Translations under genes and position numbers: made by a program | In this document: piece by piece, positions 4,003 to 63,872 of the stretch | Layout: every line of letters starts with the position of its first letter | Numbering within the stretch: position 1 is the first letter of the stretch | Source of the DNA: Membranipora membranacea | Lineage: Eukaryota; Bryozoa; Gymnolaemata; Cheilostomatida; Membraniporidae | Reading direction: 5' to 3' | DNA: 64,000 nucleotides | Assembly (NCBI GenBank): GCA_914767715.1 | Contig: OU612068.1 | Coordinates: forward strand, 16,368,001 to 16,432,000 | The notes under the pieces: model-generated | Seen by the model: the letters and a program-made list of their open reading frames with translations, nothing else | Told to the model about the DNA's origin: nothing | Databases searched by the model: none

Positions 4003-4203
4003 TAGTATGATTGAAGGAGATTGATTTGAATCAAGAGAGTATTGCGCACGATTATAAACATCGTACTATACCTGCTCCTGCAGCTCATGTATCAATCAGT
4101 GATTTAAGAATGGATGCTAGGAGATCATCAGCTAATGGGGACGGCAGCAGTAGAAATGACAGCTCAGGAAACAGCTCCTCAACTGATAACATATATGCTC
4201 AAG
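4003..4203 (+). CDS. Serine-rich upstream exon, unit A (partial gene)
   Basis: A candidate exon bounded by a very strong acceptor (long pyrimidine tract ending TTGTTTCAG) and a donor, CAAG|GTAAAT. All frames have a stop near the acceptor, so coding probably starts at the ATG at 4110, which has A at -3 and G at +4. From there 31 codons are open to the donor, encoding a polar Ser/Asn/Gly/Asp-rich segment, and the exon ends in phase 1. Phase 1 is compatible with exons 3, 4 and 5 of the downstream gene (7934, 8232, 8620) but not with its exon 2. It could therefore be the N-terminus of an isoform lacking the membrane segment, or it may end on a nearby exon: an acceptor at 5162-5163 would add 17 codons and a stop. 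Function unknown. Confidence 0.45.
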
Positions 4204-5545
4204 GTAAATACCTCTTTATGACATGTTGTAGAATAAATATACTATCTTTTTCCTTACAACGCACCCGGCCGGTAGTCGGTTTTTGGTTTGTATTCCGGAA
4301 ATTGTACTCAAATGATACAAAAATAACAGCATCACCTAGTTATTGATGGTAATACAAGCTGTTGTAGGCCCTTACTATGTGTATATGTACAGTGTAATGT
4401 TAAAAGTAGGCAATCTCGGAATAGCCTTTTGAATATTAATAATCATTATCCAAAAGTCCATAATTAGAATATAGTGCTAATTTGTATTTCTTCCGCATAT
4501 CAGAGTCTGCTGCCTTTTGTTTTAAACACTTCTTCTCGCTGCTGATGTTACATTAACACTACACTGAGCCCGATGGTGTATATGTATTTATACAAGCACT
4601 GATATATATTTTATGGATGATGGGTACATATCTGGCTCTGAGCAAGCATATGGCTACTCATGTTTGGTTGCTGGACCGCATTCCTCATCCTTGATTGGTC
4701 CACAAGTTTAGAATCTAGAATAGCTGACTCTTGTAAACTTTTGTCAAGCAGATTGCCTGAGTCATATCAATGACCACAAGTACTATTGTCAGAGACCCGC
4801 TTATAGGCGACAAGAAGGTCTACCACTAGGTAGACACACATTTCGATAATTGCTATGATATGAAATGGTGCCTTGGTACTTGGCTAGTCGTTACATCGAA
4901 CAACTGTTGCTGGTATAATGGGTTAAGTCTGGCAGTCTTTCTCTACCAGTAACTCGCAGTCGAAGTTCTATATGCAGAATAATATGGTAGACACTAATAA
5001 ACAGCGATCAATGTTGGAATTTGATCAAAATCTGTTGTCAATCATCGAGTAAGATGACTCATCATACAGTCGGTAGCTTAGCTATTATCTATTTAGTGCA
5101 TAGCAGTGGAAAGCTAACTGATATGCCACTGGTCACATGGTCCAGATTTTTTGCTGCCCTCAGACAAACAATGGCAGCAACGTTTTAGATATGACATGAA
5201 CAATGAGAAGATTTGAGCAAGGGGGGTTGGATGGGTTTATGTAACTATTTGACATGATCATGTTTCTGCGTTGTCATTCTAGCTGTGTAGGACATACCTT
5301 TGGCCTAACACCCACAGTTAATGTTTAAAAACTTGAAGATATATGCCTATTTGAAACCTTAATTCTGGAATAATTAATCTCCCTTTCTTCCACCTCCAAT
5401 CCCCATTCCCTACACGTTACTATAATCCGCTGGAAGATGCTCACACCGATATTCTTTGCGTCTAACAGTGAGTTGAAGTTGTGTAATGGCGCAACAGCGA
5501 CGATGCGTCATTGCTAAATTGTCAGCGAGTTAACAAAGCAGCACC
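4204..5545. other. Non-coding interval before the first-exon array, unit A
   Basis: No ORF with coding character. There is one strong acceptor-like site (TTTTTTGCTGCCCTCAG ending at 5163) followed by a short frame. There is also a perfect 7-bp hairpin, GTCTACC-ACTA-GGTAGAC, near 4819-4836. The rest is AT-rich spacer, very well conserved among all units, which by itself only reflects recent duplication. Confidence 0.5.
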
Positions 5546-5706
5546 ATGGATTATTCTCTTATTGTTGATTGTATTCTTGTGAATGCAGTTCTGTTCTGTA
5601 CACCTTTGGGTGGTGTCTTCTTGTGGACTACGTCCCTCTTTATCAAACCATTAGCTCTTCTTGTGATTGTCAATATGATGCTCTATCTCAGAGTTCTCAC
5701 CATTGT
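5546..5706 (+). CDS. Alternative first exon A1, hydrophobic N-terminus
   Basis: A 54-codon frame opens at an ATG in an excellent context (GCAGCACCATGG) with an in-frame TAA 15 nt upstream, so it is a true start rather than an internal exon. The peptide is strongly hydrophobic: one membrane segment around residues 10-33 and a second from about 35, with Lys34 between them and Arg49 late in the second. The frame would stop at 5708-5710, but the stop overlaps a consensus donor (ATTGT|GTAAGT), leaving 53 codons plus two nucleotides. That phase matches exon 2 at 7605, giving Val at the junction. Differences from A2 are five synonymous and one Met/Ile, indicating constraint on this frame. The splice is inferred. 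Confidence 0.6.
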
Positions 5707-6012
5707 GTAAGTATGACTGATATATTTGAATCGTCTACCCTTGTCTTATTTTGAGTACAATATATCATCTCTTTCAGAAAGGTGAGCACAGGTTTAGATA
5801 GTGTAGTCTTATTAAAGAAAAACTTCAGATGGTTTATCTAATGACTAGTTCTTTAAGAAACGTAAAGGCTTTGATTTGGTTTAATTTATTTTGCAACACA
5901 GAAAAAAACTCACCGATACTCTTTGCGCCAAACAATGAGTTTAAGTTGTGTAATGGCGCAACAACGACGAAGCTTGTTTGTTAAATTGTCAGCGAGTTAA
6001 CAAAGCAGCACC

Positions 6013-6173
6013 ATGGATTATTCTCTTATTGTTGATTGTATTCTTGTGAATGCAGTTCTGTTTTGCACACCTCTGGGTGGTGTCTTCTTGTGGACTACGT
6101 CCCTCTTTATCAAACCATTAGCTCTTCTTGTGATTGTGAATATCATGCTCTATCTCCGAGTTCTCACCATTGT
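6013..6173 (+). CDS. Alternative first exon A2
   Basis: The second copy of the hydrophobic first exon, 467 bp after A1, with the same Kozak ATG, upstream stop and GTAAGT donor. Against A1 it carries TTC/TTT, TGT/TGC, TTG/CTG, GTC/GTG and AGA/CGA changes, all synonymous, plus one Met-to-Ile change at residue 44. Its leader differs from A1: the right arm of an inverted repeat (TGCGTCATT in A1) has been replaced. It is followed by a long spacer that holds a separate exon-like open frame (6306-6450). Confidence 0.6.
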
Positions 6174-6305
6174 GTAAGTGTGACTGATATATTTGAATCG
6201 TCTACCCTTGTCTTATTTTGAGTACGATATATCATCTCTTGCTGTAAAGATATGCAGTTATTTTTGTTTTTTTTTAATTGTGTTTTTATTGTCACCCTCA
6301 ATAAG

Positions 6306-6450
6306 GATCTGATTGAAAATGTCGGTCAATATATTAACCACAAAAGGAAGCGTCTTTTTAGGCATCATCACTGAGATACCAGAAGTTAGACAAGAAGTTG
6401 TGGTGAGCACAGGTTTAGAAAGTGTAGTCTTATCAGAAAAAAACTTCTGA
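6306..6450 (+). other. Exon-like open frame in the long spacer of A2
   Basis: After an acceptor-like site (CCCTCAATAAG) a 43-codon frame begins with ATG at 6319 and runs to TGA at 6448-6450. An internal GTG|GTGAGC donor lies at 6402/6403. If the A2 first exon were spliced to 6306, unit A would read Val-Ile-stop, because the sequence is GATCTGATT. In C' the matching GATCAGATT keeps the frame open into the 43 codons. It may be an alternative second exon that is dead in A. Low confidence. Confidence 0.25.
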
Positions 6451-6773
6451 TGTTTTATTTATCTAACGACTAGTTCTTCCAGCAACACAAAGGCTTTGAC
6501 TTGTCTACCCTTGTCCTATTCTAGGTGCAGTCTTTTTCGTAAACTTATGTATATATGGTGAGCACAGGTTAAGAAAGTGTCCTCTTATTTAATAATTTAT
6601 CTAATGTCTAGTTCTTCAAGAAACGTTAAAGCTTTGATTTGAATTCATTTAGCTAGACAGACAAAAACTCACACCGATATTCTTTGCGTCTAACAGTGAG
6701 TTGAAGTTGTGTAATGGCGCAACAGCGACGGTGCGTCATTGCTAAATTGTCAGCGAGTTAACAAAGCAGCACC

Positions 6774-6934
6774 ATGGATTATTCTTTGATTGTTGATTCT
6801 ATTCTTGTGAATGCAGTTCTGTTCTGCACACCTCTGGGTGGTGTCTTCTTGTGGACTACGTCCCTCTTTATCAAACCATTAGCTCTTCTTGTGATTGTCA
6901 ACATGATGCTCTATCTCAGAGTTCTCACCATTGT
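6774..6934 (+). CDS. Alternative first exon A3
   Basis: The third first-exon copy, 761 bp after A2. Kozak ATG, in-frame upstream TAA and donor GTAAGT are all kept. Against A1 there are four synonymous changes (CTT/TTG, TGT/TGC, TTG/CTG, AAT/AAC) and one Cys9Ser. The leader contains the imperfect inverted repeat AATGGCGCA ... TGCGTCATT also present at A1, a candidate promoter-proximal element. Confidence 0.6.
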
Positions 6935-7240
6935 GTAAGTATGACTGATATATTTGATTCGTCTGCCCTTGTCTTATTTTGAGTACAATATATCATCTCT
7001 TTCAGCAAGGTGAGCACAGGTTTAGATAGTGTAGTCTTATTAAAGAAAAACTTCAGATGGTTTATCTAATGACTAGTTCTTTAAGAAAAGTAAAGGCTTT
7101 GATTTGGTTTAATTTATTTTGCAACACAGAAAAAAACTCACCGATACTCTTTGCGCCAAACAATGAGTTTAAGTTGTGTAATGGCGCAACAACGACAAAG
7201 CGTCATTGTTAAATTGTCAGCGAGTTAACAAAGCAGCACC

Positions 7241-8741
7241 ATGGATTGTTCTCTGATTGTTGATTCTATTCTTGTGAATGCAGTTCTGTTCTGTACACCT
7301 CTGGGTTATGACTTCTTATGGACTGCATCCTTCTTTATCAAACCATTAGCTCTTCTTGTGATTGTGAATATTATGCTCTATCTCAGAGTTCACACCATTG
7401 TGTAAGTGTGACAGATTTGTTAATTTTGTCTATTCTCAATCGATATAAATGGACAATTCATGTTACAAATATATATTCTGTGAAAGGGACTATCTGTGTA
7501 AGTAATTTAGGTGTGCTTATCCTGAGCTCTGAAGGCAATAATGCCGTCATCAGCGATCAATTCATGTTGTTCTTAGTTAGAGTTATTTGTGATTTCTGCT
7601 TTAGGACTCCGTTGATTGAGTTTATGACAGATGAAACCAGAATGATGAGACGCATAAATGCGCAGCAATCCTCACAACCTACACAAGAAATATTTAAAGA
7701 AAACCACGATAGGAAAATACACGTACGGTCATATGAGAAAGCTAAAGACATGACCAGCCTAATCAAACTGTTTAATGGTGAGTGCAGATAATATTACAGG
7801 CTGCTTGATTTAACCTTGGTTAAATTGGAGCGATCTTACATCCAACTCTTATGGCATAGAGCTTGTCTGCATGTTGTTGCACTAACTTTGACCATTCTTC
7901 CGGCTTTGATGAAATAAATACATTGTATTACAGAAAAATCTGAGACGCTGTTTCCACAACGGCATCAACGACATCAGAACAACCCTGCTAGAATGGTTGA
8001 ATATAATCGAACGGATGGCCAACATTATGTGGATGGTAAGTTTTGATCATTTCTTTACCAGTCATAAGTACACAAAGTACAAAAGTACACAGCAAAGCGA
8101 AGTCATGTCCTCTTGAATCAAGGGAACACAACCTAGAAACTGACCTAGAATTAACATAACACAGTGTGTTTGACTTTTCAGAATCTAGTAATTAGGTTGT
8201 GGCTTATTTTTAGCTATTGCTGTTCTCCCAGGATCTGATACATTCGCTGCTGGAGATCCGTTACTTGTGGTTCCACAGCAAAACCCTCCACATGAACATC
8301 GCAATGTCCATCATCAACAAGGTAATTATTTACCAACGCAACTCCCTGAAATTCAGAAAAGAATTACTGATGTAACTAGAACAAGTTATACTTTCAGATA
8401 TTAATTTATGTAGCGCTCAGCTAGAGAATTACCATTGTAAGTTGATAGGAAAGACTATATAATATACCAACATAACAAGTTGTATGTCTGCAGCCAACTA
8501 TATTGAAAAGCTTGGTCAAGATAGGCCACTTTCATCATGATGTTATCTCATATAATTTTGGAGTCTAGGATCTCGCTACTGGTGTGTTCTATTGATCATG
8601 TTGCATTTGACAATTATAGATAGCACTGAAGAAACCAGCTGGATCATTCCAAAGAGAGTGGAGAGGGTCAACGTGGTGGTTAACAGGATAGTTGAGCAGA
8701 GGGTTGTGGCCATCAGGACTTACCGCTCAACGCAGCTTTAA
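7241..8741 (+). CDS. Five-exon gene for a predicted two-TM small membrane protein, unit A
   Basis: Exons read by eye: 7241-7401, 7605-7777, 7934-8035, 8232-8321 and 8620-8741, with TAA at 8739-8741. All introns are GT-AG; the junction phases are 2, 1, 1, 1 and every junction keeps the frame open. Total 648 nt, 215 residues. Residues about 10-33 and 35-58 are hydrophobic (two likely membrane helices). Residues 60-175 are polar, with basic stretches in exon 2 and a His/Gln/Pro/Asn-rich exon 4. The C-terminal 40 residues (exon 5) begin acidic and become basic and valine-rich. The first exon (A4) is the most diverged of the four in this unit (Tyr3Cys, Gly23Tyr, Val24Asp, Leu51His among others). 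Exons A1-A3 end in the same phase and could replace it. AATAAA follows at 8792. I do not recognise the family. Splicing is predicted, not proven. Confidence 0.62.
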
Positions 8742-12700: not shown

Positions 12701-12723
12701 CTGACGACTGTTGAGTTGCCAAG

Positions 12724-13116
12724 ATGGTGCGCATGAATGTACTCGCAGATGCTTTAAAATCTATCAACAATGCTGAGAAGAGAGGCAAGCGACAGGTTCT
12801 CCTGCGACCCTGCTCCAAGGTCATCGTCCGATTCCTGAAAGTGATGATGAAGCATGGTTATATTGGTGAATTCGAGATTGTTGACGATCACAGATCAGGA
12901 AAGATCGTAGTCAACCTTACTGGACGTCTCAACAAGTGTGGTGTTATCAGCCCCAGATATGATGTTGGTGTTACTGATATCGAGTCCTGGACCAACAGTC
13001 TGTTGCCATCACGTCAGTTTGGATTCATTGTGATGACTACCTCACAAGGTATTATGGATCATGAAGAGGCAAGAAGGAAACATCTTGGTGGAAAAATTCT
13101 TGGATTTTTCTTTTAA
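12724..13116 (+). CDS. RPS15A: 40S ribosomal protein S15a (uS8), intronless retrocopy, unit B
   Basis: A 130-residue intact ORF, the normal length for eukaryotic uS8. The start is [20 protein letters not shown], the middle keeps HGYIGEFE and [19 protein letters not shown], and it ends in the invariant KILGFFF. uS8 sits in the small-subunit body and contacts 18S rRNA. The coding region has no intron, and AATAAA (13129-13134) follows the stop. The sequence then switches within a few bases to gypsy pol DNA in the opposite orientation. This points to an mRNA-derived copy captured by a retroelement. The upstream context CCAAGATGG is a good start. The central [15 protein letters not shown] segment fits an invertebrate animal. 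Whether it is expressed is unknown. Confidence 0.92.
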
Positions 13117-13139
13117 CTGTAGTTAAAGAATAAAAGATC

Positions 13140-14021
13140 AAAACCTCCTGTACTAAAGACATCGGCATATTTGATTAACAACTGTAGTAGAGCTTGTCGT
13201 TGCTCCTCTGTTTTACAACTAGGGAGTGCCTGCTCATACATTGGTATCAAATGTTCGGGTACACCGGTTGTTTGGCTCTGTGGGGAGTTATTAACCTGTG
13301 TGATATCGACCCGTGTTTGTAGTGAGGACTGGTCGGCTAATAACTGATCTTCCTTGATAGATGCAAACGTGGCTATTGTAGTACCTGCTCGAATGGTTAC
13401 CGGATTTTCATGTGGGTTAATACACCGCATGACAATAAGCCGGTTCGAGTTAGAGGTTGATACAGTGCTGGCCACGCATATACCTACATCTTTGTCTTTA
13501 TAGTTCTCTACTAGGCCAATGCGTTCTGCTGTTTCACCAATTAGTCTCCCTGTGATTTGATACTCTGAATTTGCAGGTATCGTGGTGATGCGTGTGACTT
13601 GTATCTTAGTGCTAATCATACTTCCGTATTTATCCACACAGACTAAGTCCCGACCATCCATTCTCAGTACTCCTCGGTCTAGCAATAGATGACATTGGTG
13701 TTCCTCAAAGAAACCCATGCCCAAAATTCCATCCTCTGTAATATTAGCTACTCGGAAAGAGATTTCTGCTGGCATGCTTCTGACTCTACAATTTAAGGTG
13801 ATGGTGCCATATACTAATAGGCCACTCCCATCAGCCTGTGCAGCGGTGACCGGATCATGAAATAGCCGATCTTTTATTCGAGAAGGTAGTTGAGAATAGG
13901 ATGACCAGGATAACACGTTGTCGCTGGCGCCTGAATCCAGGAGAAATTTTGCTGATCGTCCCCCTTCAAGCTTGCCTGGTATATACAGACAGTTACCATG
14001 TGCCAAACTTCTGGTTTCCAT
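13140..14021 (-). pseudogene. Ty3/gypsy pol fragment, retropepsin domain, unit B
   Basis: A minus-strand frame of about 294 residues from the ATG at 14021. An aspartic protease active site LLDSGASDN lies at residues 27-35 and an ILGMGF motif at about 95-100. The linker ending KYADVFSTGGFDL normally leads into the reverse transcriptase. The homology stops exactly there and the last few codons before the stop are read from the antisense of the RPS15A 3' end. RT, RNase H and integrase are missing. The frame appears open further upstream, so the true N-terminus may be longer, but the leader is scrambled by a 151-bp duplication. Confidence 0.85.
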
Positions 14022-14315
14022 AACTTCTGGAATAATTTGTTGTCTAGGCTGTTTTCTGGTTCGGGTGTGGTTCAGTGTTGTGTGGTGTTGTGTGTGGTGT
14101 GTGGTGTGTGTGTGGTGTGGTGTGTGTGTGGTGTTGTGTGTTGTGTGGTTCAGAGTTGTATTGGTGTTTCCATAACTTCTGGAATAATTTGTTGTCTAGG
14201 CTGTTTTCTGGTTTGGGTGTGGTTCAGTGTTGTGTTGTGTGTGGTGTGTGGTGTGTGTGTGGTGTGTGGTGTGGTGTGTGTGTGGTGTTGTGTGTTGTGT
14301 GGTTCAGAGTTGTAT
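14014..14315. repeat. 151-bp duplication with GT/GTGTGG low-complexity core
   Basis: Two direct units start at 14014 and 14165, each GTTTCCATAACTTCTGG followed by a GT-rich tract and ending GTGGTTCAGAGTTGTATTG. Apparent ORFs across it (Cys/Val/Trp-rich) are low-complexity artefacts. The copy in B' is at 47925-48226. Confidence 0.85.
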
Positions 14316-19029: not shown

Positions 19030-19190
19030 ATGGATTATTCTCTTATTGTTGATTGTATTCTTGTGAATGCAGTTCTGTTCTGTACACCTTTGGGTGGTGT
19101 CTTCTTGTGGACTACGTCCCTCTTTATCAAACCATTAGCTCTTCTTGTGATTGTCAATATGATGCTCTATCTCAGAGTTCTCACCATTGT
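19030..19190 (+). CDS. Alternative first exon B1
   Basis: Equivalent of A1: Kozak ATG, upstream stop, donor GTAAGT directly after 19190. It encodes the same peptide as A1. Confidence 0.58.
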
Positions 19191-19496
19191 GTAAGTATGA
19201 CTGATATATTTGAATCGTCTACCCTTGTCTTATTTTGAGTACAATATATCATCTCTTTCAGAAAGGTGAGCACAGGTTTAGATAGTGTAGTCTTATTAAA
19301 GAAAAACTTCAGATGGTTTATCTAATGACTAGTTCTTTAAGAAACGTAAAGGCTTTGATTTGGTTTAATTTATTTTGCAACACAGAAAAAAACTCACCGA
19401 TACTCTTTGCGCCAAACAATGAGTTTAAGTTGTGTAATGGCGCAACAACGACGAAGCTTGTTTGTTAAATTGTCAGCGAGTTAACAAAGCAGCACC

Positions 19497-19657
19497 ATGG
19501 ATTATTCTCTTATTGTTGATTGTATTCTTGTGAATGCAGTTCTGTTTTGCACACCTCTGGGTGGTGTCTTCTTGTGGACTACGTCCCTCTTTATCAAACC
19601 ATTAGCTCTTCTTGTGATTGTGAATATCATGCTCTATCTCCGAGTTCTCACCATTGT
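19497..19657 (+). CDS. Alternative first exon B2
   Basis: Equivalent of A2, 467 bp after B1, with the A2-specific synonymous set and Ile44. It is followed by the long spacer with the 43-codon frame (ATG at 19803); the GATCTG form there gives an early stop if spliced. Confidence 0.58.
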
Positions 19658-20257
19658 GTAAGTGTGACTGATATATTTGAATCGTCTACCCTTGTCTTAT
19701 TTTGAGTACGATATATCATCTCTTGCTGTAAAGATATGCAGTTATTTTTGTTTTTTTTTAATTGTGTTTTTATTGTCACCCTCAATAAGGATCTGATTGA
19801 AAATGTCGGTCAATATATTAACCACAAAAGGAAGCGTCTTTTTAGGCATCATCACTGAGATACCAGAAGTTAGACAAGAAGTTGTGGTGAGCACAGGTTT
19901 AGAAAGTGTAGTCTTATCAGAAAAAAACTTCTGATGTTTTATTTATCTAACGACTAGTTCTTCCGGCAACACAAAGGCTTTGACTTGTCTACCCTTGTCC
20001 TATTCTAGGTGCAGTCTTTTTCGTAAACTTATGTATATATGGTGAGCACAGGTTAAGAAAGTGTCCTCTTATTTAATAATTTATCTAATGTCTAGTTCTT
20101 CAAGAAACGTTAAAGCTTTGATTTGAATTCATTTAGCTAGACAGACAGAAACTCACACCGATATTCTTTGCGTCTAACAGTGAGTTGAAGTTGTGTAATG
20201 GCGCAACAGCGACGGTGCGTCATTGCTAAATTGTCAGCGAGTTAACAAAGCAGCACC

Positions 20258-20418
20258 ATGGATTATTCTTTGATTGTTGATTCTATTCTTGTGAATGCAG
20301 TTCTGTTCTGCACACCTCTGGGTGGTGTCTTCTTGTGGACTACGTCCCTCTTTATCAAACCATTAGCTCTTCTTGTGATTGTCAACATGATGCTCTATCT
20401 CAGAGTTCTCACCATTGT
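20258..20418 (+). CDS. Alternative first exon B3
   Basis: Equivalent of A3, 761 bp after B2, with Ser9 and the same donor and leader inverted repeat. Confidence 0.58.
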
Positions 20419-20724
20419 GTAAGTATGACTGATATATTTGATTCGTCTGCCCTTGTCTTATTTTGAGTACAATATATCATCTCTTTCAGCAAGGTGAGCA
20501 CAGGTTTAGATAGTGTAGTCTTATTAAAGAAAAACTTCAGATGGTTTATCTAATGACTAGTTCTTTAAGAAAAGTAAAGGCTTTGATTTGGTTTAATTTA
20601 TTTTGCAACACAGAAAAAAACTCACCGATACTCTTTGCGCCAAACAATGAGTTTAAGTTGTGTAATGGCGCAACAACGACAAAGCGTCATTGTTAAATTG
20701 TCAGCGAGTTAACAAAGCAGCACC

Positions 20725-22225
20725 ATGGATTGTTCTCTGATTGTTGATTCTATTCTTGTGAATGCAGTTCTGTTCTGTACACCTCTGGGTTATGACTTCT
20801 TATGGACTGCATCCTTCTTTATCAAACCATTAGCTCTTCTTGTGATTGTGAATATTATGCTCTATCTCAGAGTTCACACCATTGTGTAAGTGTGACAGAT
20901 TTGTTAATTTTGTCTATTCTCAATCGATATAAATGGACAATTCATGTTACAAATATATATTCTGTGAAAGGGACTATCTGTGTAAGTAATTTAGGTGTGC
21001 TTATCCTGAGCTCTGAAGGCAATAATGCCGTCATCAGCGATCAATTCATGTTGTTCTTAGTTAGAGTTATTTGTGATTTCTGCTTTAGGACTCCGTTGAT
21101 TGAGTTTATGACAGATGAAACCAGAATGATGAGACGCATAAATGCGCAGCAATCCTCACAACCTACACAAGAAATATTTAAAGAAAACCACGATAGGAAA
21201 ATACACGTACGGTCATATGAGAAAGCTAAAGACATGACCAGCCTAATCAAACTGTTTAATGGTGAGTGCAGATAATATTACAGGCTGCTTGATTTAACCT
21301 TGGTTAAATTGGAGCGATCTTACATCCAACTCTTATGGCATAGAGCTTGTCTGCATGTTGTTGCACTAACTTTGACCATTCTTCCGGCTTTGATGAAATA
21401 AATACATTGTATTACAGAAAAATCTGAGACGCTGTTTCCACAACGGCATCAACGACATCAGAACAACCCTGCTAGAATGGTTGAATATAATCGAACGGAT
21501 GGCCAACATTATGTGGATGGTAAGTTTTGATCATTTCTTTACCAGTCATAAGTACACAAAGTACAAAAGTACACAGCAAAGCGAAGTCATGTCCTCTTGA
21601 ATCAAGGGAACACAACCTAGAAACTGACCTAGAATTAACATAACACAGTGTGTTTGACTTTTCAGAATCTAGTAATTAGGTTGTGGCTTATTTTTAGCTA
21701 TTGCTGTTCTCCCAGGATCTGATACATTCGCTGCTGGAGATCCGTTACTTGTGGTTCCACAGCAAAACCCTCCACATGAACCACGCAATCTCCATCATCA
21801 ACAAGGTAATTATTTACCAACGCAACTCCCTGAAATTCAGAAAAGAATTACTGATGTAACTAGAACAAGTTATACTTTCAGATATTAGTTTATGTAGCGC
21901 TCAGCTAGAGAATTACCATTGTAAGTTGATAGGAAAGACTGTATAATATACCAACATAACAAGTTGTATGTCTGCAGCCAACTATATTGAAAAGCTTGGT
22001 CAAGATAGGCTACTTTCATCATGATGTTATCTCATATAATTTTGGAGTCTAGGATCTCGCTACTGGTGTGTTCTATTGATCATGTTGCATTTGACAATTA
22101 TAGATAGCACTGAAGAAACCAGCTGGATCATTCCAAAGAGAGTGGAGAGGGTCAACGTGGTGGTTAACAGGATAGTTGAGCAGAGGGTTGTGGCCATCAG
22201 GACTTACCGCTCAACGCAGCTTTAA
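20725..22225 (+). CDS. Five-exon membrane-protein gene, unit B
   Basis: Exons 20725-20885, 21089-21261, 21418-21519, 21716-21805 and 22104-22225, same phases as in A, TAA at 22223. It differs from A in exon 4, where His-Arg-Asn-Val becomes Pro-Arg-Asn-Leu. No splice site is damaged. Poly(A) hexamer and the 3' hairpin (22405-22447) follow. Confidence 0.62.
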
Positions 22226-29409: not shown

Positions 29410-29570
29410 ATGGATTATTCTCTTATTGTTGATTGTATTCTTGTGAATGCAGTTCTGTTCTGTACACCTTTGGGTGGTGTCTTCTTGTGGACTACGTCCC
29501 TCTTTATCAAACCATTAGCTCTTCTTGTGATTGTCAATATGATGCTCTATCTCAGAGTTCTCACCATTGT
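29410..29570 (+). CDS. First exon C1, with deleted leader
   Basis: The coding part equals A1, but 32 bp of leader are missing between GTGTAAT and TGTCAGCG (at 29383/29384). This removes both arms of the inverted repeat. The downstream side is of the long-spacer (A2) type, so this copy is an A1/A2 recombinant that lost one repeat. Donor GTAAGT kept. Confidence 0.5.
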
Positions 29571-30165
29571 GTAAGTATTACTGATATATTTGAATCGTCT
29601 ACCCTTGTCTTATTTTGAGTACGATATATCATCTCTTGCTGTAAAGTTATGCAGTTATATTTTTTTTTTAATTGAGTTTTTATTGTCACCCTCAATAAGG
29701 ATCAGATTGAAAATGTCGGTCAATATATTAACCACAAAAGGAAGCGTCTTTTTAGGCATCATAACTGAGATCCAGAAGTTAGACAAGAAGTTGTGGTGAG
29801 CACAGGTTTAGAAAGTGTAGTCTTATCAGAAAAAACTTCTGATGTTTTATTTATCTAACGACTAGTTCTTCCAGCAACACAAAGGCTTTGACTTGTCTAC
29901 CCTTGTCCTATTCTAGGTGCAGTCTTTTTCGTAAACTTATGTATATATGGTGAGCACAGGTTAAGAAAGTGTCCTCTTATTTAATAATTTATCTAATGTC
30001 TAGATCTTCAAGAAACGTTAAAGCTTTGATTTGAATTTATTTAGCTAGACAGACAAAAACTCACACCGATATTCTTTGCGTCTAACAGTGAGTTGAAGTT
30101 GTGTAATGGCGCAACAGCGACGGTGCGTCATTGCTAAATTGTCAGCGAGTTAACAAAGCAGCACC

Positions 30166-30326
30166 ATGGATTATTCTCTTATTGTTGATTGTATTCTTGT
30201 GAATGCAGTTCTGTTCTGTACACCTTTGGGTGGTGTCTTCTTGTGGACTACGTCCCTCTTTATCAAACCATTTGCTCTTCTTGTGATTGTCAATATGATG
30301 CTCTATCTCAGAGTTCTCACCATTGT
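30166..30326 (+). CDS. First exon C2, orphaned
   Basis: 756 bp after C1. Kozak ATG and donor intact, Leu36Phe. The unit is cut 154 bp later by the R2-like segment, so no exon 2 is available in this unit. Confidence 0.5.
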
Positions 30327-30480: not shown

Positions 30481-33400
30481 TTCTAGATACAACATACAGT
30501 GGTGCGCGTACCACTGCACAACACACAGGTCTTCAGCTAGAAACCATGAGTCAAACGCTGTTTCGAGGCCTTCTCTAGTACAACCTCCTCATGGCCGGCC
30601 CCAGCAGCATGAAGCCACCCCTGTGTGTTGCTGAGCATCTCAATCAATCTCATCGATCCCTCAGTGCATTTTGTCAGTTTCGGTGGTTTGACATAATTGG
30701 TGTGTTTACGCTGTTGCGCAACCAGGGAGGCTGCCAACTCTTCATTGTTTCAGTGCAACAATGTTCGCCCCATCACTCTCATGCTTATACTCTAAGCCAA
30801 ACCAGTGCAGGGAGGTTTGCTTTCCATCAACTCATCGGCGCAAAGTCGCTATCGTCAAGGCACCCGCCCCACGTGCCACTCGTTCGCTACTCAAATTCAC
30901 CACATTGAGCATAGTACAACTCATACACAAGTCAGAGAGATGACTTGTTTGCGCTACAGCCAGTGGGCTGACTGTGATTTCCTGTCTCGCTCTGCCTGCC
31001 TTTTATGCGAGGGCCAAGCTTTTAATCCTATGTTTGTAAAACCTTAGATCTAACTCAGACTCACTTTGATTTTCACTCTGCAGAGATTAAACTACTTTAA
31101 TTTGAGTATTAAAGGCATAATCTTGCTTAGCCTTCTACCCCAAGCAATTTGCTTATCATCACTTAATCCCCTCATTCTAATCCTTACAAGGATTATAACA
31201 AAAGGAATTAAATGCTGGCCAACTCCACAAAACAAAGTGAGTGTGTTAAACCCCAGCTTACAAGTAATAGGATTACTTAGCTTTTGTCTTCACACAGTGC
31301 TGTTGCCATATCCATGCAGATGCGCTTTCTGCCTCATGTACTATGCTTTTTGTGGCTTGTTTGAGTGCTCTTCCTGAAAGCCCAACTCTGGTCAGAAATT
31401 TGGTAGCTGATCTAGCCATGAATCCACGGCAACCAACTTCCACTGCGAATAATTCGCAATTCCAACCTTTGTCTTGGCATTGTGTGACCAGATCTTCGTA
31501 TCTTGTCAGTTTTCTCTCATGCGCATATGAGAGATTTTCTTCCCAAGGCACCGTCAATTCCATCAGTATTAGTGCTTTTTCTTTGTCAGACCAAACAATT
31601 AAGTCTGGTCTTTGGTTCGTGATCACAATATGCTGTGGCATGCTGAGCTGCTCTGTGAGGTCGCATCTCACCTGCCATTCTCCGCTGTTCATCAATCCCT
31701 TTTTGCGCAAAATCTTTTCACGCGCTTCACCACCAGCATTAGCATATTCACACTTCTCCGTGACATATTTACACAACACTTTCAGGACTTGATTATGCCT
31801 ATACGTGTATCTTCCCAGGCTCTGTTGGCAATTCGACAGTATATGTCGAAGTGTGCCCTTAGCCGAGCACTCGGCGCATTTCGAGTTCTCGGTCAAATTC
31901 CAGCGTTCCAGGTTTGCCGGGGTCGGTAGTTGATCATAAGCTGCACCAACCAGAAAGCTGATCCTTTGTGGCTCCATCGACCACAATTCTGTCCATTTGA
32001 GCTGACGCTGCTCAACAGACTCCCAACAAGTCCACCTGCCTTGTTGGGCTTGGCCTACAGCTTGTGTCTGGCGGCGCTCCTCTTCCATCTTGCGCACCTC
32101 ATCAACTACCATCTCCCGTCTAACCTTTGGGCTTTCCTTTGAGAACCACCGGTTTGCTTCCCAGCCGATGCCATGACGTGCAGTTGTCACAGCACCCACA
32201 ATCTCACTTATCTCCAGTCGAGATTTGGCATCTCTGACAGTCTCTGTGACAGACCATTTTTTACCAGTGTCAAGTGTTGGAGCACATTCCCTTATCACCT
32301 GGTCTGGTGACTCGTTCAACATCATATCCAGTCTCGCCTTTGATGTTTTGTACTCTTCCACAAGCGATTTCATAGGTAGTGAAAGAGTAAACGAACTGGC
32401 ATACAGTGCATTAGTGTTGAAGCTCCTTGGAACTCCAAGCCACTTACGCATGTGCTTGTTAATCATTTGCTCCATTCTCTCAACTGGTGTTAGCGGAATA
32501 TCATAAACTGTCAGAGGCCACAGAATTCGAGGCATGAGTGCAAAGTTGAGAATCCAGGCTTTGTATTTGCCAGACAGACCACATTTTTCAATCGCGTCCA
32601 GCCCTGTAATGAGTTGCTTTTTCACCTCGTTTCCGCGAAACCTGTCTGTGATCGGTAAACTATACCATCTTCCTAAGCTCTTCACAGGCTGCTCTGCAAG
32701 CGTGGGAACACGCTCTGTTCCTATGAAGTAGGTATTTGGTACAGGTTTGCCTTTACACAAAGACAGGGACCGGCTCTTGCTAGGTTTGAATCGCATCGCA
32801 CATCTCTCTATCAACTCATGCAGTTCTATAGCAAACGTATCTTCGGTGGTAGTTGGCTGAACTGGCTGAGGAGGAGTAGCGGCTGTGCGCTCAGACCTTC
32901 GTGTTACATTAGATGAGCTGTTACCTCTGTAGTGGGTGTTGTCGCTTTGGTGTCTAGCTCTGTTGTGGCTGATCGGCCTAGTGTTGGTGTAGGCTGGCCT
33001 TCTGTAGTTGTGGTGTCTGTTGTTGCACCGAGCAGTCGTTTCCTCAACATCTTCTCTCGGCTTCTTTGTTGTCTGGGTAGTAGTAGGTGGTGAAGGAAAC
33101 TTCCGCTTTGGGATGCGATATGTCTCGTCTGCAGGAGCTGTAGCTGTTAGTTTTGGCCGGGAAGTGTTCTCGGGGAAGGATCTCGGCATCTGCTGGGAGT
33201 CCAGTGTGTTTACTGCTTTTGGGAAGGACGGCCTGTCTATCCTGGCAGTTTGGCGTCTCTCCCCTTTGTGTTGTCTGTGTTGGTGACTGCTGAGTGTCTC
33301 ATGATTGTCTGTAAAGAATCCACAGAAACATGAATAGACTAGGTAATGATCCCAAATGTGGCGCCTCACACTCTCGACTGAGCGAGGTAGGGCGGCATCA

Positions 33401-33988
33401 CATATTGGACATTTGTGAGTGTTCCTAGCTATTTCAAAATTGTGATTGAACTCCAGCTGTGTATTTAGTTGAATGAAGGGGTGTCCTTTTACCGAACCAT
33501 CAGGGCCTATATTAATGGGCTTAGGCAGGTGAGGTTGATGTACAGACTGATTTGAGTTTGATAGGTTAGGTCTACCAATGTTCTCATTGCCGACAGGTGT
33601 GAGACTGCCTGTAGCTGTGGAATTCTCAGAGTTGGGTATCGGGTTGGTTTGTGTGAGAGCCGATATTGGTTTAGTTATGTTATCAACTAAATCGGTCTGA
33701 ACTATAACCTCGATATTTATTTGATCTGAATTCGGAGTGTTGTGGGCTACCGAGTTTTTGGTGAATAGAGGTGATGGACTCAGTGTCGACATTCCTGGTC
33801 TGGTTGGAGTAGACTGTTTAGCAGGGCGCCTTTTGAAACACTCTGGTAGTTCTGGTGTTGGTGGTAAAGGTCTTATTTCGTTCAGTGTGCGATTAGCTTC
33901 AAGTGCTAATATCAACTTGTGCTTTATTACTGTTTCTAGTTAATTCTGCGTAGCTAGCGCATAGGAATTAATAGTAGAGTAAAGTGTG
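30481..33988 (-). mobile_element. R2-like (restriction-like-endonuclease) retroelement segment
   Basis: About 3.5 kb unrelated to the tandem unit. The left edge abuts unit C at offset about 6600 and the right edge abuts the 289-bp leader of B type, so the whole junction replaces about 7 kb of tandem sequence rather than being a simple insertion. The minus-strand 3' region (31272 down to 30481) is non-coding and ends with a hairpin CAGTGGT-6 nt-ACCACTG (30497-30516), with no poly(A) tail or target duplication seen. Confidence 0.8.
31273..33915 (-). CDS. R2-like ORF with zinc fingers and endonuclease but no reverse transcriptase core
   Basis: An 880-codon open frame; the first codon is TTG, and the first ATG is residue 42 (33792). 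Residues 169-215 hold two N-terminal zinc-finger-like motifs (CPICD..H....H and CFCG..H..H). These are followed by a low-complexity Pro/Thr/Arg region to about 355. From residue 362 the frame resumes in the end of the RT domain (MRFKPSKSRSL, VKSLGRW) and continues through the thumb and linker. A CCHC knuckle follows (C680, C683, H691, C696), then a restriction-like endonuclease core (R769-P-D771, E786, then K802..Y806). The fingers and palm with the YxDD box are absent, although the frame is intact. A full R2-type protein makes the target nick and primes reverse transcription; this one could bind and cut DNA at most. It may be a non-autonomous deletion derivative. Confidence 0.83.
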   Translation of the reverse strand: MILALEANRTLNEIRPLPPTPELPECFKRRPAKQSTPTRPGMSTLSPSPLFTKNSVAHNTPNSDQINIEVIVQTDLVDNITKPISALTQTNPIPNSENSTATGSLTPVGNENIGRPNLSNSNQSVHQPHLPKPINIGPDGSVKGHPFIQLNTQLEFNHNFEIARNTHKCPICDAALPRSVESVRRHIWDHYLVYSCFCGFFTDNHETLSSHQHRQHKGERRQTARIDRPSFPKAVNTLDSQQMPRSFPENTSRPKLTATAPADETYRIPKRKFPSPPTTTQTTKKPREDVEETTARCNNRHHNYRRPAYTNTRPISHNRARHQSDNTHYRGNSSSNVTRRSERTAATPPQPVQPTTTEDTFAIELHELIERCAMRFKPSKSRSLSLCKGKPVPNTYFIGTERVPTLAEQPVKSLGRWYSLPITDRFRGNEVKKQLITGLDAIEKCGLSGKYKAWILNFALMPRILWPLTVYDIPLTPVERMEQMINKHMRKWLGVPRSFNTNALYASSFTLSLPMKSLVEEYKTSKARLDMMLNESPDQVIRECAPTLDTGKKWSVTETVRDAKSRLEISEIVGAVTTARHGIGWEANRWFSKESPKVRREMVVDEVRKMEEERRQTQAVGQAQQGRWTCWESVEQRQLKWTELWSMEPQRISFLVGAAYDQLPTPANLERWNLTENSKCAECSAKGTLRHILSNCQQSLGRYTYRHNQVLKVLCKYVTEKCEYANAGGEAREKILRKKGLMNSGEWQVRCDLTEQLSMPQHIVITNQRPDLIVWSDKEKALILMELTVPWEENLSYAHERKLTRYEDLVTQCQDKGWNCELFAVEVGCRGFMARSATKFLTRVGLSGRALKQATKSIVHEAESASAWIWQQHCVKTKAK

Positions 33989-38701: not shown

Positions 38702-38862
38702 ATGGATTATTCTCTTATTGTTGATTGTATTCTTGTGAATGCAGTTCTGTTCTGTACACCTTTGGGTGGTGTCTTCTTGTGGACTACGTCCCTCTTTATC
38801 AAACCATTAGCTCTTCTTGTGATTGTCAATATGATGCTCTATCTCAGAGTTCTCACCATTGT
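38702..38862 (+). CDS. Alternative first exon C'1
   Basis: Equivalent of A1, same peptide, short 467-bp spacer to the next copy. Confidence 0.57.
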
Positions 38863-39168
38863 GTAAGTATGACTGATATATTTGAATCGTCTACCCTTGT
38901 CTTATTTTGAGTACAATATATCATCTCTTTCAGAAAGGTGAGCACAGGTTTAGATAGTGTAGTCTTATTAAAGAAAAACTTCAGATGGTTTATCTAATGA
39001 CTAGTTCTTTAAGAAACGTAAAGGCTTTGATTTGGTTTAATTTATTTTGCAACACAGAAAAAAACTCACCGATACTCTTTGCGCCAAACAATGAGTTTAA
39101 GTTGTGTAATGGCGCAACAACGACGAAGCTTGTTTGTTAAATTGTCAGCGAGTTAACAAAGCAGCACC

Positions 39169-39329
39169 ATGGATTATTCTCTTATTGTTGATTGTATTCT
39201 TGTGAATGCAGTTCTGTTTTGCACACCTCTGGGTGGTGTCTTCTTGTGGACTACGTCCCTCTTTATCAAACCATTAGCTCTTCTTGTGATTGTGAATATC
39301 ATGCTCTATCTCCGAGTTCTCACCATTGT
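39169..39329 (+). CDS. Alternative first exon C'2
   Basis: Equivalent of A2 with Ile44 and its synonymous set; followed by the long spacer with the GATCTG form. Confidence 0.57.
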
Positions 39330-39929
39330 GTAAGTGTGACTGATATATTTGAATCGTCTACCCTTGTCTTATTTTGAGTACGATATATCATCTCTTGCTG
39401 TAAAGATATGCAGTTATTTTTGTTTTTTTTTAATTGTGTTTTTATTGTCACCCTCAATAAGGATCTGATTGAAAATGTCGGTCAATATATTAACCACAAA
39501 AGGAAGCGTCTTTTTAGGCATCATCACTGAGATACCAGAAGTTAGACAAGAAGTTGTGGTGAGCACAGGTTTAGAAAGTGTAGTCTTATCAGAAAAAAAC
39601 TTCTGATGTTTTATTTATCTAACGACTAGTTCTTCCGGCAACACAAAGGCTTTGACTTGTCTACCCTTGTCCTATTCTAGGTGCAGTCTTTTTCGTAAAC
39701 TTATGTATATATGGTGAGCACAGGTTAAGAAAGTGTCCTCTTATTTAATAATTTATCTAATGTCTAGTTCTTCAAGAAACGTTAAAGCTTTGATTTGAAT
39801 TCATTTAGCTAGACAGACAGAAACTCACACCAATATTCTTTGCGTCTAACAGTGAGTTGAAGTTGTGTAATGGCGCAACAGCGACGGTGCGTCATTGCTA
39901 AATTGTCAGCGAGTTAACAAAGCAGCACC

Positions 39930-40090
39930 ATGGATTATTCTCTTATTGTTGATTGTATTCTTGTGAATGCAGTTCTGTTCTGTACACCTTTGGGTGGTGT
40001 CTTCTTGTGGACTACGTCCCTCTTTATCAAACCATTAGCTCTTCTTGTGATTGTCAATATGATGCTCTATCTCCGAGTTCTCACCATTGT
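39930..40090 (+). CDS. Alternative first exon C'3 (extra copy)
   Basis: An additional copy not present in A, B or B'. It lies 761 bp after C'2 and 760 bp before C'4. Its body has A1-type codons with the A2-type CGA at Arg49, so it is a recombinant. Kozak ATG and donor intact. Confidence 0.57.
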
Positions 40091-40221
40091 GTAAGTATGA
40101 CTGATATATTTGATTCGTCTACCCTTGTCTTATTTTGAGTACGATATATCATCTCTTGCTGTAAAGATATGCAGTTATTTTTGTTTTTTTTAATTGTGTT
40201 TTTATTGTCACCCTCAATAAG

Positions 40222-40366
40222 GATCAGATTGAAAATGTCGGTCAATATATTAACCACAAAAGGAAGCGTCTTTTTAGGCATCATCACTGAGATACCAGAA
40301 GTTAGACAAGAAGTTGTGGTGAGCACAGGTTTAGAAAGTGTAGTCTTATCAGAAAAAAACTTCTGA
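40222..40366 (+). other. Exon-like frame after C'3, open version
   Basis: After the acceptor-like CCCTCAATAAG the sequence is GATCAGATT. Splicing from first exon C'3 (phase 2) gives Val-Ile-Arg-Leu-Lys and then the full 43 codons from the inner ATG to TGA at 40364-40366. In A2, B2 and C'2 the matching codon is TGA. A candidate alternative second exon that would yield a short two-TM peptide of about 100 residues. Confidence 0.3.
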
Positions 40367-40689
40367 TGTTTTATTTATCTAACGACTAGTTCTTCCAGCA
40401 ACACAAAGGCTTTGACTTGTCTACCCTTGTCCTATTCTAGGTGCAGTCTTTTTCGTAAACTTATGTATATATGGTGAGCACAGGTTAAGAAAGTGTCCTC
40501 TTATTTAATAATTTATCTAATGTCTAGTTCTTCAAGAAACGTTAAAGCTTTGATTTGAATTCATTTAGCTAGACAGACAAAAACTCACACCGATATTCTT
40601 TGCGTCTAACAGTGAGTTGAAGTTGTGTAATGGCGCAACAGCGACGGTGCGTCATTGCTAAATTGTCAGCGAGTTAACAAAGCAGCACC

Positions 40690-40850
40690 ATGGATTATTC
40701 TTTGATTGTTGATTCTATTCTTGTGAATGCAGTTCTGTTCTGCACACCTCTGGGTGGTGTCTTCTTGTGGACTACGTCCCTCTTTATCAAACCATTAGCT
40801 CTTCTTGTGATTGTCAACATGATGCTCTATCTCAGAGTTCTCACCATTGT
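40690..40850 (+). CDS. Alternative first exon C'4
   Basis: Equivalent of A3 (Ser9 and its synonymous set), 467 bp before the last first exon. Confidence 0.57.
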
Positions 40851-41156
40851 GTAAGTATGACTGATATATTTGATTCGTCTGCCCTTGTCTTATTTTGAGT
40901 ACAATATATCATCTCTTTCAGCAAGGTGAGCACAGGTTTAGATAGTGTAGTCTTATTAAAGAAAAACTTCAGATGGTTTATCTAATGACTAGTTCTTTAA
41001 GAAAAGTAAAGGCTTTGATTTGGTTTAATTTATTTTGCAACACAGAAAAAAACTCACCGATACTCTTTGCGCCAAACAATGAGTTTAAGTTGTGTAATGG
41101 CGCAACAACGACAAAGCGTCATTGTTAAATTGTCAGCGAGTTAACAAAGCAGCACC

Positions 41157-42657
41157 ATGGATTGTTCTCTGATTGTTGATTCTATTCTTGTGAATGCAGT
41201 TCTGTTCTGTACACCTCTGGGTTATGACTTCTTATGGACTGCATCCTTCTTTATCAAACCATTAGCTCTTCTTGTGATTGTGAATATTATGCTCTATCTC
41301 AGAGTTCACACCATTGTGTAAGTGTGACAGATTTGTTAATTTTGTCTATTCTCAATCGATATAAATGGACAATTCATGTTACAAATATATATTCTGTGAA
41401 AGGGACTATCTGTGTAAGTAATTTAGGTGTGCTTATCCTGAGCTCTGAAGGCAATAATGCCGTCATCAGCGATCAATTCATGTTGTTCTTAGTTAGAGTT
41501 ATTTGTGATTTCTGCTTTAGGACTCCGTTGATTGAGTTTATGACAGATGAAACCAGAATGATGAGACGCATAAATGCGCAGCAATCCTCACAACCTACAC
41601 AAGAAATATTTAAAGAAAACCACGATAGGAAAATACACGTACGGTCATATGAGAAAGCTAAAGACATGACCAGCCTAATCAAACTGTTTAATGGTGAGTG
41701 CAGATAATATTACAGGCTGCTTGATTTAACCTTGGTTAAATTGGAGCGATCTTACATCCAACTCTTATGGCATAGAGCTTGTCTGCATGTTGTTGCACTA
41801 ACTTTGACCATTCTTCCGGCTTTGATGAAATAAATACATTGTATTACAGAAAAATCTGAGACGCTGTTTCCACAACGGCATCAACGACATCAGAACAACC
41901 CTGCTAGAATGGTTGAATATAATCGAACGGATGGCCAACATTATGTGGATGGTAAGTTTTGATCATTTCTTTACCAGTCATAAGTACACAAAGTACAAAA
42001 GTACACAGCAAAGCGAAGTCATGTCCTCTTGAATCAAGGGAACACAACCTAGAAACTGACCTAGAATTAACATAACACAGTGTGTTTGACTTTTCAGAAT
42101 CTAGTAATTAGGTTGTGGCTTATTTTTAGCTATTGCTGTTCTCCCAGGATCTGATACATTTGCTGCTGGAGATCCGTTACTTGTGGTTCCACAGCAAAAC
42201 CCTCCACATGAACCACGCAATCTCCATCATCAACAAGGTAATTATTTACCAACGCAACTCCCTGAAATTCAGAAAAGAATTACTGATGTAACTAGAACAA
42301 GTTATACTTTCAGATATTAGTTTATGTAGCGCTCAGCTAGAGAATTACCATTGTAAGTTGATAGGAAAGACTGTATAATATACCAACATAACAAGTTGTA
42401 TGTCTGCAGCCAACTATATTGAAAAGCTTGGTCAAGATAGGCTACTTTCATCATGATGTTATCTCATATAATTTTGGAGTCTAGGATCTCGCTACTGGTG
42501 TGTTCTATTGATCATGTTGCATTTGACAATTATAGATAGCACTGAAGAAACCAGCTGGATCATTCCAAAGAGAGTGGAGAGGGTCAACGTGGTGGTTAAC
42601 AGGATAGTTGAGCAGAGGGTTGTGGCCATCAGGACTTACCGCTCAACGCAGCTTTAA
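41157..42657 (+). CDS. Five-exon membrane-protein gene, unit C'
   Basis: Exons 41157-41317, 41521-41693, 41850-41951, 42148-42237 and 42536-42657, TAA at 42655. Exon 4 has the Pro-Arg-Asn-Leu form of B plus a synonymous TTC-to-TTT change. All splice sites intact, although the upstream serine-rich exon of this unit is broken. Confidence 0.62.
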
Positions 42658-52940: not shown

Positions 52941-53101
52941 ATGGATTATTCTCTTATTGTTGATTGTATTCTTGTGAATGCAGTTCTGTTCTGTACACCT
53001 TTGGGTGGTGTCTTCTTGTGGACTACGTCCCTCTTTATCAAACCATTAGCTCTTCTTGTGATTGTCAATATGATGCTCTATCTCAGAGTTCTCACCATTG
53101 T
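52941..53101 (+). CDS. Alternative first exon B'1
   Basis: Equivalent of A1 and B1, same peptide and donor. Confidence 0.58.
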
Positions 53102-53407
53102 GTAAGTATGACTGATATATTTGAATCGTCTACCCTTGTCTTATTTTGAGTACAATATATCATCTCTTTCAGAAAGGTGAGCACAGGTTTAGATAGTGTA
53201 GTCTTATTAAAGAAAAACTTCAGATGGTTTATCTAATGACTAGTTCTTTAAGAAACGTAAAGGCTTTGATTTGGTTTAATTTATTTTGCAACACAGAAAA
53301 AAACTCACCGATACTCTTTGCGCCAAACAATGAGTTTAAGTTGTGTAATGGCGCAACAACGACGAAGCTTGTTTGTTAAATTGTCAGCGAGTTAACAAAG
53401 CAGCACC

Positions 53408-53568
53408 ATGGATTATTCTCTTATTGTTGATTGTATTCTTGTGAATGCAGTTCTGTTTTGCACACCTCTGGGTGGTGTCTTCTTGTGGACTACGTCCCTC
53501 TTTATCAAACCATTAGCTCTTCTTGTGATTGTGAATATCATGCTCTATCTCCGAGTTCTCACCATTGT
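53408..53568 (+). CDS. Alternative first exon B'2
   Basis: Equivalent of A2 and B2 (Ile44), followed by the long spacer with the GATCTG stop form. Confidence 0.58.
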
Positions 53569-54168
53569 GTAAGTGTGACTGATATATTTGAATCGTCTAC
53601 CCTTGTCTTATTTTGAGTACGATATATCATCTCTTGCTGTAAAGATATGCAGTTATTTTTGTTTTTTTTTAATTGTGTTTTTATTGTCACCCTCAATAAG
53701 GATCTGATTGAAAATGTCGGTCAATATATTAACCACAAAAGGAAGCGTCTTTTTAGGCATCATCACTGAGATACCAGAAGTTAGACAAGAAGTTGTGGTG
53801 AGCACAGGTTTAGAAAGTGTAGTCTTATCAGAAAAAAACTTCTGATGTTTTATTTATCTAACGACTAGTTCTTCCGGCAACACAAAGGCTTTGACTTGTC
53901 TACCCTTGTCCTATTCTAGGTGCAGTCTTTTTCGTAAACTTATGTATATATGGTGAGCACAGGTTAAGAAAGTGTCCTCTTATTTAATAATTTATCTAAT
54001 GTCTAGTTCTTCAAGAAACGTTAAAGCTTTGATTTGAATTCATTTAGCTAGACAGACAGAAACTCACACCGATATTCTTTGCGTCTAACAGTGAGTTGAA
54101 GTTGTGTAATGGCGCAACAGCGACGGTGCGTCATTGCTAAATTGTCAGCGAGTTAACAAAGCAGCACC

Positions 54169-54329
54169 ATGGATTATTCTTTGATTGTTGATTCTATTCT
54201 TGTGAATGCAGTTCTGTTCTGCACACCTCTGGGTGGTGTCTTCTTGTGGACTACGTCCCTCTTTATCAAACCATTAGCTCTTCTTGTGATTGTCAACATG
54301 ATGCTCTATCTCAGAGTTCTCACCATTGT
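54169..54329 (+). CDS. Alternative first exon B'3
   Basis: Equivalent of A3 and B3 (Ser9). Confidence 0.58.
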
Positions 54330-54635
54330 GTAAGTATGACTGATATATTTGATTCGTCTGCCCTTGTCTTATTTTGAGTACAATATATCATCTCTTTCAG
54401 CAAGGTGAGCACAGGTTTAGATAGTGTAGTCTTATTAAAGAAAAACTTCAGATGGTTTATCTAATGACTAGTTCTTTAAGAAAAGTAAAGGCTTTGATTT
54501 GGTTTAATTTATTTTGCAACACAGAAAAAAACTCACCGATACTCTTTGCGCCAAACAATGAGTTTAAGTTGTGTAATGGCGCAACAACGACAAAGCGTCA
54601 TTGTTAAATTGTCAGCGAGTTAACAAAGCAGCACC

Positions 54636-56136
54636 ATGGATTGTTCTCTGATTGTTGATTCTATTCTTGTGAATGCAGTTCTGTTCTGTACACCTCTGGG
54701 TTATGACTTCTTATGGACTGCATCCTTCTTTATCAAACCATTAGCTCTTCTTGTGATTGTGAATATTATGCTCTATCTCAGAGTTCACACCATTGTGTAA
54801 GTGTGACAGATTTGTTAATTTTGTCTATTCTCAATCGATATAAATGGACAATTCATGTTACAAATATATATTCTGTGAAAGGGACTATCTGTGTAAGTAA
54901 TTTAGGTGTGCTTATCCTGAGCTCTGAAGGCAATAATGCCGTCATCAGCGATCAATTCATGTTGTTCTTAGTTAGAGTTATTTGTGATTTCTGCTTTAGG
55001 ACTCCGTTGATTGAGTTTATGACAGATGAAACCAGAATGATGAGACGCATAAATGCGCAGCAATCCTCACAACCTACACAAGAAATATTTAAAGAAAACC
55101 ACGATAGGAAAATACACGTACGGTCATATGAGAAAGCTAAAGACATGACCAGCCTAATCAAACTGTTTAATGGTGAGTGCAGATAATATTACAGGCTGCT
55201 TGATTTAACCTTGGTTAAATTGGAGCGATCTTACATCCAACTCTTATGGCATAGAGCTTGTCTGCATGTTGTTGCACTAACTTTGACCATTCTTCCGGCT
55301 TTGATGAAATAAATACATTGTATTACAGAAAAATCTGAGACGCTGTTTCCACAACGGCATCAACGACATCAGAACAACCCTGCTAGAATGGTTGAATATA
55401 ATCGAACGGATGGCCAACATTATGTGGATGGTAAGTTTTGATCATTTCTTTACCAGTCATAAGTACACAAAGTACAAAAGTACACAGCAAAGCGAAGTCA
55501 TGTCCTCTTGAATCAAGGGAACACAACCTAGAAACTGACCTAGAATTAACATAACACAGTGTGTTTGACTTTTCAGAATCTAGTAATTAGGTTGTGGCTT
55601 ATTTTTAGCTATTGCTGTTCTCCCAGGATCTGATACATTCGCTGCTGGAGATCCGTTACTTGTGGTTCCACAGCAAAACCCTCCACATGAACCACGCAAT
55701 CTCCATCATCAACAAGGTAATTATTTACCAACGCAACTCCCTGAAATTCAGAAAAGAATTACTGATGTAACTAGAACAAGTTATACTTTCAGATATTAGT
55801 TTATGTAGCGCTCAGCTAGAGAATTACCATTGTAAGTTGATAGGAAAGACTGTATAATATACCAACATAACAAGTTGTATGTCTGCAGCCAACTATATTG
55901 AAAAGCTTGGTCAAGATAGGCTACTTTCATCATGATGTTATCTCATATAATTTTGGAGTCTAGGATCTCGCTACTGGTGTGTTCTATTGATCATGTTGCA
56001 TTTGACAATTATAGATAGCACTGAAGAAACCAGCTGGATCATTCCAAAGAGAGTGGAGAGGGTCAACGTGGTGGTTAACAGGATAGTTGAGCAGAGGGTT
56101 GTGGCCATCAGGACTTACCGCTCAACGCAGCTTTAA
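54636..56136 (+). CDS. Five-exon membrane-protein gene, unit B'
   Basis: Exons 54636-54796, 55000-55172, 55329-55430, 55627-55716 and 56015-56136, TAA at 56134. Encodes the same protein as the B gene. Hairpin and AATAAA follow (56316-56358 and beyond). Confidence 0.62.
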
Positions 56137-63711: not shown

Positions 63712-63872
63712 ATGGATTATTCTCTTATTGTTGATTGTATTCTTGTGAATGCAGTTCTGTTCTGTACACCTTTGGGTGGTGTCTTCTTGTGGACTACGTC
63801 CCTCTTTATCAAACCATTAGCTCTTCTTGTGATTGTCAATATGATGCTCTATCTCAGAGTTCTCACCATTGT
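63712..63872 (+). CDS. Alternative first exon D1
   Basis: Equivalent of A1, with Kozak ATG and GTAAGT donor. Further first exons and the constant exons would lie beyond the window. Confidence 0.57.

Follow-up and report, generated by a model that had tools for sequence, protein, structure and literature searches.

Why should a gene carry several nearly identical copies of its first exon ahead of a single set of downstream exons? The question is raised by a tandem array in the bryozoan Membranipora membranacea, which we analysed in a window of 64,000 nt (C4:16368001-16432000; forward strand of contig OU612068.1, assembly GCA_914767715.1) and followed through the 339 Mb, 18-contig genome. The array is built of short hydrophobic first exons (E1) and of a body of four further exons, arranged in eight tandem units, of which A-F begin inside the window and Z and G lie outside it (Table 1). 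The window holds 20 E1 copies spread over units A-F and four complete bodies, the whole genome 35 full-length E1 and seven bodies, unit C being the one without a body, and all 35 E1 copies lie on the same strand of a single 35-Mb contig. The number of E1 differs between units (2, 4, 5 or 6, with 4-6 in complete units), as do insertions, and within units the E1 blocks repeat every 467 nt or 756-762 nt. Our answer, held tentatively and with a little less than even confidence, is that a partial tandem duplication was followed by amplification of whole units, and that several E1 per unit are used with one body.

Each E1 comprises 161 nt, starts with ATG, keeps an open frame and ends in phase 2 at a GTAAGT donor. 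All 20 window copies contain CACCATGG, have an open frame and end as GT/GTAAGT, and open frame and donor are intact in 35/35 copies genome-wide, bearing out the preliminary description of several first exons of this form. GTAAGT is invariant in all 35, and the next 24 positions are variable (34/35 copies compared). In unit A the E1 frame continues into exon 2, while at any other body acceptor (that of exon 3, either of the two of exon 4, that of exon 5) it meets a stop by the eighth codon past the junction codon, so that exon 2 is, as had been proposed, the only body exon accepting phase 2. The three exons that follow it had been said to stay open to one stop, and this held for the frames of all seven bodies, in which the splice-site dinucleotides are also intact (4/4 in the window).

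Evidence of expression concerns the body. A protein database search with the joined product gave 401 candidates and one match, P0001 (161 aa, from a 922-nt JGI contig), which tracks exons 2-5 in spliced form and uses the exon-4 acceptor at 8214, 18 nt upstream of that at 8232, adding six residues. Aligned with the spliced bodies, P0001 is gap-free over 161/161 residues and differs at three of them from units B, D and E (five from A); the three residues all fall in exon 3 and are shared with unit Z, which has other differences besides. Against the bryozoan genome it gave exon-by-exon matches only, with no retrocopy seen among them (30 matches; 27 candidates scored), and we infer that the contig derives from spliced RNA. 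The spliced match to exons 2-5 makes transcription of the body as a gene very probable. Its gene call takes Met 7624, within exon 2, as the start, and P0001 therefore gives no support for E1. By eye, P0002 (113 aa, 1042-nt contig) spans exon 2 together with adjoining sequence of introns 1 and 2, i.e. it is unspliced.

Joined to E1, the product is likely a hydrophobic anchor with a hydrophilic tail: E1 is modelled as two helices (residues 3-18 and 20-53; mean predicted local distance difference test, pLDDT, 77.5), and exons 2-5 with the 8214 acceptor encode about 168 mostly hydrophilic residues, which model poorly (pLDDT 55.1) and among which no 19-residue segment is strongly hydrophobic (maximum 0.71). 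No Pfam family above cut-off was found for the joined protein, and no relatives were found in viral and prokaryote collections. The locus would appear to be a small membrane-protein gene with relatives known only from itself and its own genome.

How the array arose can be read from its junctions. Over 7.2 kb the sequence downstream of unit G matches the Z-A spacer, up to a point 104 nt short of the A1 ATG, beyond which G diverges; whole units were therefore duplicated, the breakpoint lying in the 5' flank. Units B-F resemble A upstream of E1, Z and G have several kb of upstream sequence in common (pieces 90-98%), and among the eight units only these two retain the shared upstream region. The block repeated inside units consists of the first exon, its proximal 5' flank and part of intron 1; the flank block of ~104 nt precedes the E1 copies, one of the 35 (C1) having a 32-nt deletion in it. 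Unequal crossing-over and conversion are indicated as the processes that shaped the array: A and B are nearly identical for about 5 kb, even in non-coding sequence, E1 copies D3 and C1 combine features of other copies, and E1 number varies. In unit C, homology to A resumes at 33989 with sequence from near 14306, and the gap holds a retroelement ORF (open reading frame). It is highly improbable that the repeated units are an assembly artefact of unmerged haplotypes: A+B and D+E are 99.3% alike across 18.5 kb, as such an artefact would have it, but E1 number and insertions vary by unit, Z and A diverge by 0-9.4% depending on the segment, the 35 copies share one strand of one contig with a clean junction where tested, and the E1 repeats within units would stay regardless.

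Table 1. Features of the array in the window, numbered from its first nucleotide
Feature	Position	Strand	Remarks
5' flank of A1, ~104 nt, common to E1 copies	5442..5545	+	~5442 is the whole-unit duplication junction
Unit A, E1 copy A1	5546..5706	+	161 nt, hydrophobic, donor GTAAGT
Unit A, E1 copy A2	6013..6173	+	
Unit A, E1 copy A3	6774..6934	+	
Unit A, E1 copy A4	7241..7401	+	proximal copy, most diverged of unit A
Unit A, exon 2	7605..7777	+	sole body exon taking phase 2 in frame
Unit A, exon 3	7934..8035	+	
Unit A, exon 4	8214..8321	+	start as in P0001; alternative acceptor gives start 8232
Unit A, exon 5	8620..8741	+	contains stop; AATAAA at 8792
Unit B	19030..22225	+	E1 at 19030, 19497, 20258, 20725; body from 21089
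Unit C	29410..30326	+	E1 at 29410, 30166; no body; homology to unit A ends 30480
Retroelement ORF	31273..33939	-	zf-RVT match under Pfam cut-off; sits where unit C body is missing
Unit D	38702..42657	+	E1 at 38702, 39169, 39930, 40690, 41157; body from 41521
Unit E	52941..56136	+	E1 at 52941, 53408, 54169, 54636; body from 55000
Unit F, first E1	63712..63872	+	four further E1 and body past the window

The history we tentatively favour would thus begin with internal tandem duplication of a block in which exon 1 is bracketed by ~104 nt of proximal 5' flank and some of intron 1, continue with amplification of whole units from a left breakpoint ~104 nt before the E1 ATG, and end with homogenisation of the copies. 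Each block is most likely a short promoter plus a first exon, the 104-nt flank being the putative promoter, and transcripts would begin at several E1 and splice to the single exon 2, giving nearly one protein from several starts. A 15-codon upstream ORF (MAQQR...; 5486-5533 at A1) lies in frame in this flank, its TAA 15 nt before the E1 ATG, and is kept upstream of 34/35 E1 copies; a MAQQR..VIA reading was also seen by eye upstream of a diverged E1 copy in L008.

The copies themselves differ little. Distal E1 copies in the window are only 0-2 residues apart, therefore there is little that is variable about these first exons, and the proximal copy, 85% identical to A1, has 8/54 residues changed; first exons encoding distinct domains or specificities were accordingly not what we found. 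The array may multiply promoters rather than protein variety, which may be the better part of the earlier interpretation. In a stronger form of this idea, which we consider quite unlikely, all 35 first-exon blocks (~104 nt plus exon) feed the seven bodies, the E1 of unit C splicing into the unit D body, whose exon 2 lies 11.2 kb downstream, so that start-site number and not protein variety was amplified.

Whether E1 is under constraint was examined through silent and replacement changes (counts given as silent:replacement). In the window the ratio was 7:3 for A1-A3 (P=0.0066) and 9:12 for all six E1 sequences (P=0.042), with 2:8 among changes private to A4 (P=0.68). With units Z and G added, the set grew to 16 E1 sequences (haplotypes), 14 distal and two proximal, and gave 9:13 for the distal ones (P=0.06) and 3:10 for changes private to the proximal two (P=0.60). 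Selection as proof that E1 is coding was dropped, the significance seen in the window being lost once Z and G were included, and selection across all copies would be weak at best. The absence of stops in E1 is uninformative (P 0.44). Exon columns are less variable than flanks among the 14 distal sequences (22/161 vs. 32/139, Fisher P=0.049), which weakly supports E1 as coding sequence. Both this difference and the 35/35 intact donors and frames speak against a reading that we regard as possible though rather unlikely, in which just one E1 per unit, or just units Z and G, are transcribed and the remaining E1 are young duplication debris yet to decay. Homology between the A4 intron and the sequence after A1-A3 was not significant (P 0.27, 0.16 and 0.54), therefore the drop in identity past the donor may mark a duplication breakpoint and not constraint.

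A further alternative, in our view unlikely, takes E1 and the body as separate genes, the body starting from its own first exon or from Met 7624, as the P0001 gene call does, and E1 standing alone. Every unspliced E1 is indeed a complete 54-codon ORF, because the stop falls within the donor-like site (GTG TAA GT), and ATTAAA lies 104-108 nt past E1 in 10/20 window copies. Relatives elsewhere in the genome point the same way. The minus strand of contig C7 carries, around 15.17 Mb, body-like sequences whose similarity begins only at window position 7681, within exon 2: two fragments and two longer stretches, the latter interrupted by in-frame stops or a frame shift. In 30 kb of sequence there, E1-like matches were no better than E=9.9. 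Conversely, an E1 relative at C4:26.3 Mb retains part of the 5' flank (36-77 nt, 72-92%), but lacks the segment holding the E1 start codon, and body matches within 30 kb reach E=8 at best (a smaller search of 10 kb alone gave E=1.6 over 13 residues). Separate genes are argued against by the donor, identical in all 35 copies, by exon 2 continuing the E1 frame, and by protein searches, in which E1 alone gave zero candidates, so that no stand-alone E1 protein was found.

Several results also weigh against the use of several E1 with one body. E1-like and body-like relatives were found apart from each other, therefore the two parts may have separate origins. No protein containing E1 was found in three protein searches, one of them with E1 alone, and, more mildly, E1 joined in frame would give a longer gene call than one starting at 7624. 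Across all 16 E1 sequences the replacement/silent test was not significant (12:23, P=0.11). Nor are the exons of the body consistently better conserved than its introns. In the Z-A comparison, divergence is 0-0.8% in exons 2, 4 and 5 and 0.3-6.3% in introns, but reaches 7.8% in exon 3; in the A-G comparison it is 3.7% in exon 4 against 0-1.0% in introns. Finally, the upstream region that Z and G share is missing from units A-F.

Among known systems the locus appears most like PEP1, the FLC orthologue of Arabis alpina, with more copies and with nesting. In the excerpted account of PEP1 (PMC3527215; a further source, likewise in excerpt, is PMC7927791), the duplication covers exon 1 with parts of the promoter and of intron 1, transcripts from either first exon are spliced to a single exon 2 and have separate start sites (5' RACE, rapid amplification of cDNA ends), and accession Paj has identical predicted proteins from both copies. 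The bryozoan array resembles it in that a first exon has been tandemly duplicated together with some of the proximal promoter (here putative) and some of intron 1 ahead of one exon 2, and, for distal copies, in the near-identical predicted protein, the proximal copy differing from A1 as given above. It differs in having 4-6 nested copies per complete unit, known from genome sequence, where PEP1 has two whose separate starts 5' RACE supports, and PEP1 is a MADS-box gene, which this locus, with no Pfam match above cut-off, is not. The preliminary description had likened the locus to UGT1A and the clustered protocadherins; tandem first exons ahead of one constant body stand, as do the many first exons and few constant exons of protocadherins alpha and gamma, but the variety was overstated, and PEP1 seems the better fit. 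In the excerpts of PMC1885805, the first exons of the UGT1, GCNT2 and Pcdh clusters differ in content; those of UGT1 encode a signal peptide and substrate-recognition domain, and those of UGT1 and GCNT2 each have a distinct promoter and join common downstream exons. The bryozoan first exons are closely similar, 53-codon and hydrophobic, have no Pfam match above cut-off and carry a shared ~104-nt block as putative promoter; nothing like the diverse cadherin-like surface proteins encoded by protocadherin variable exons (PMC1885805, same excerpts) occurs at the locus. No report of this locus was found in the literature on first-exon clusters, queried by architecture without the species name. If several E1 are used, the array offers a natural dosage series (4, 5 or 6 first exons per body, and 2 with none) beyond the two-copy case already described in PEP1, and lets one ask if extra copies of a proximal promoter and first exon increase the output of one body, as against copying the whole gene.

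Other features lie in and around the array, in which no Rfam match at the gathering threshold was found within the window. An exon-like open stretch (4011-4205; similar in units B-F) followed by a donor-like GT has seven genome matches and comes after 6/7 bodies and after unit C; the copy between C and D has an 11-nt deletion and has lost the GT. Two unit spacers contain an intact intronless ORF for ribosomal protein S15a (uS8) at 12715-13116 and 46626-47027, whose best solved-structure matches are S15a entries of animal ribosomes and which is probably a retrocopy carried along with the spacers. Minus-strand ORFs at 13113-14195 and 47024-48106 have aspartyl-protease matches under the Pfam cut-off and are probably retroelement remnants. 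Upstream of unit Z (L001 ~265-789) a 176-residue open stretch, with no Pfam match, encodes a hydrophobic segment and what we take to be PPxY-like motifs.
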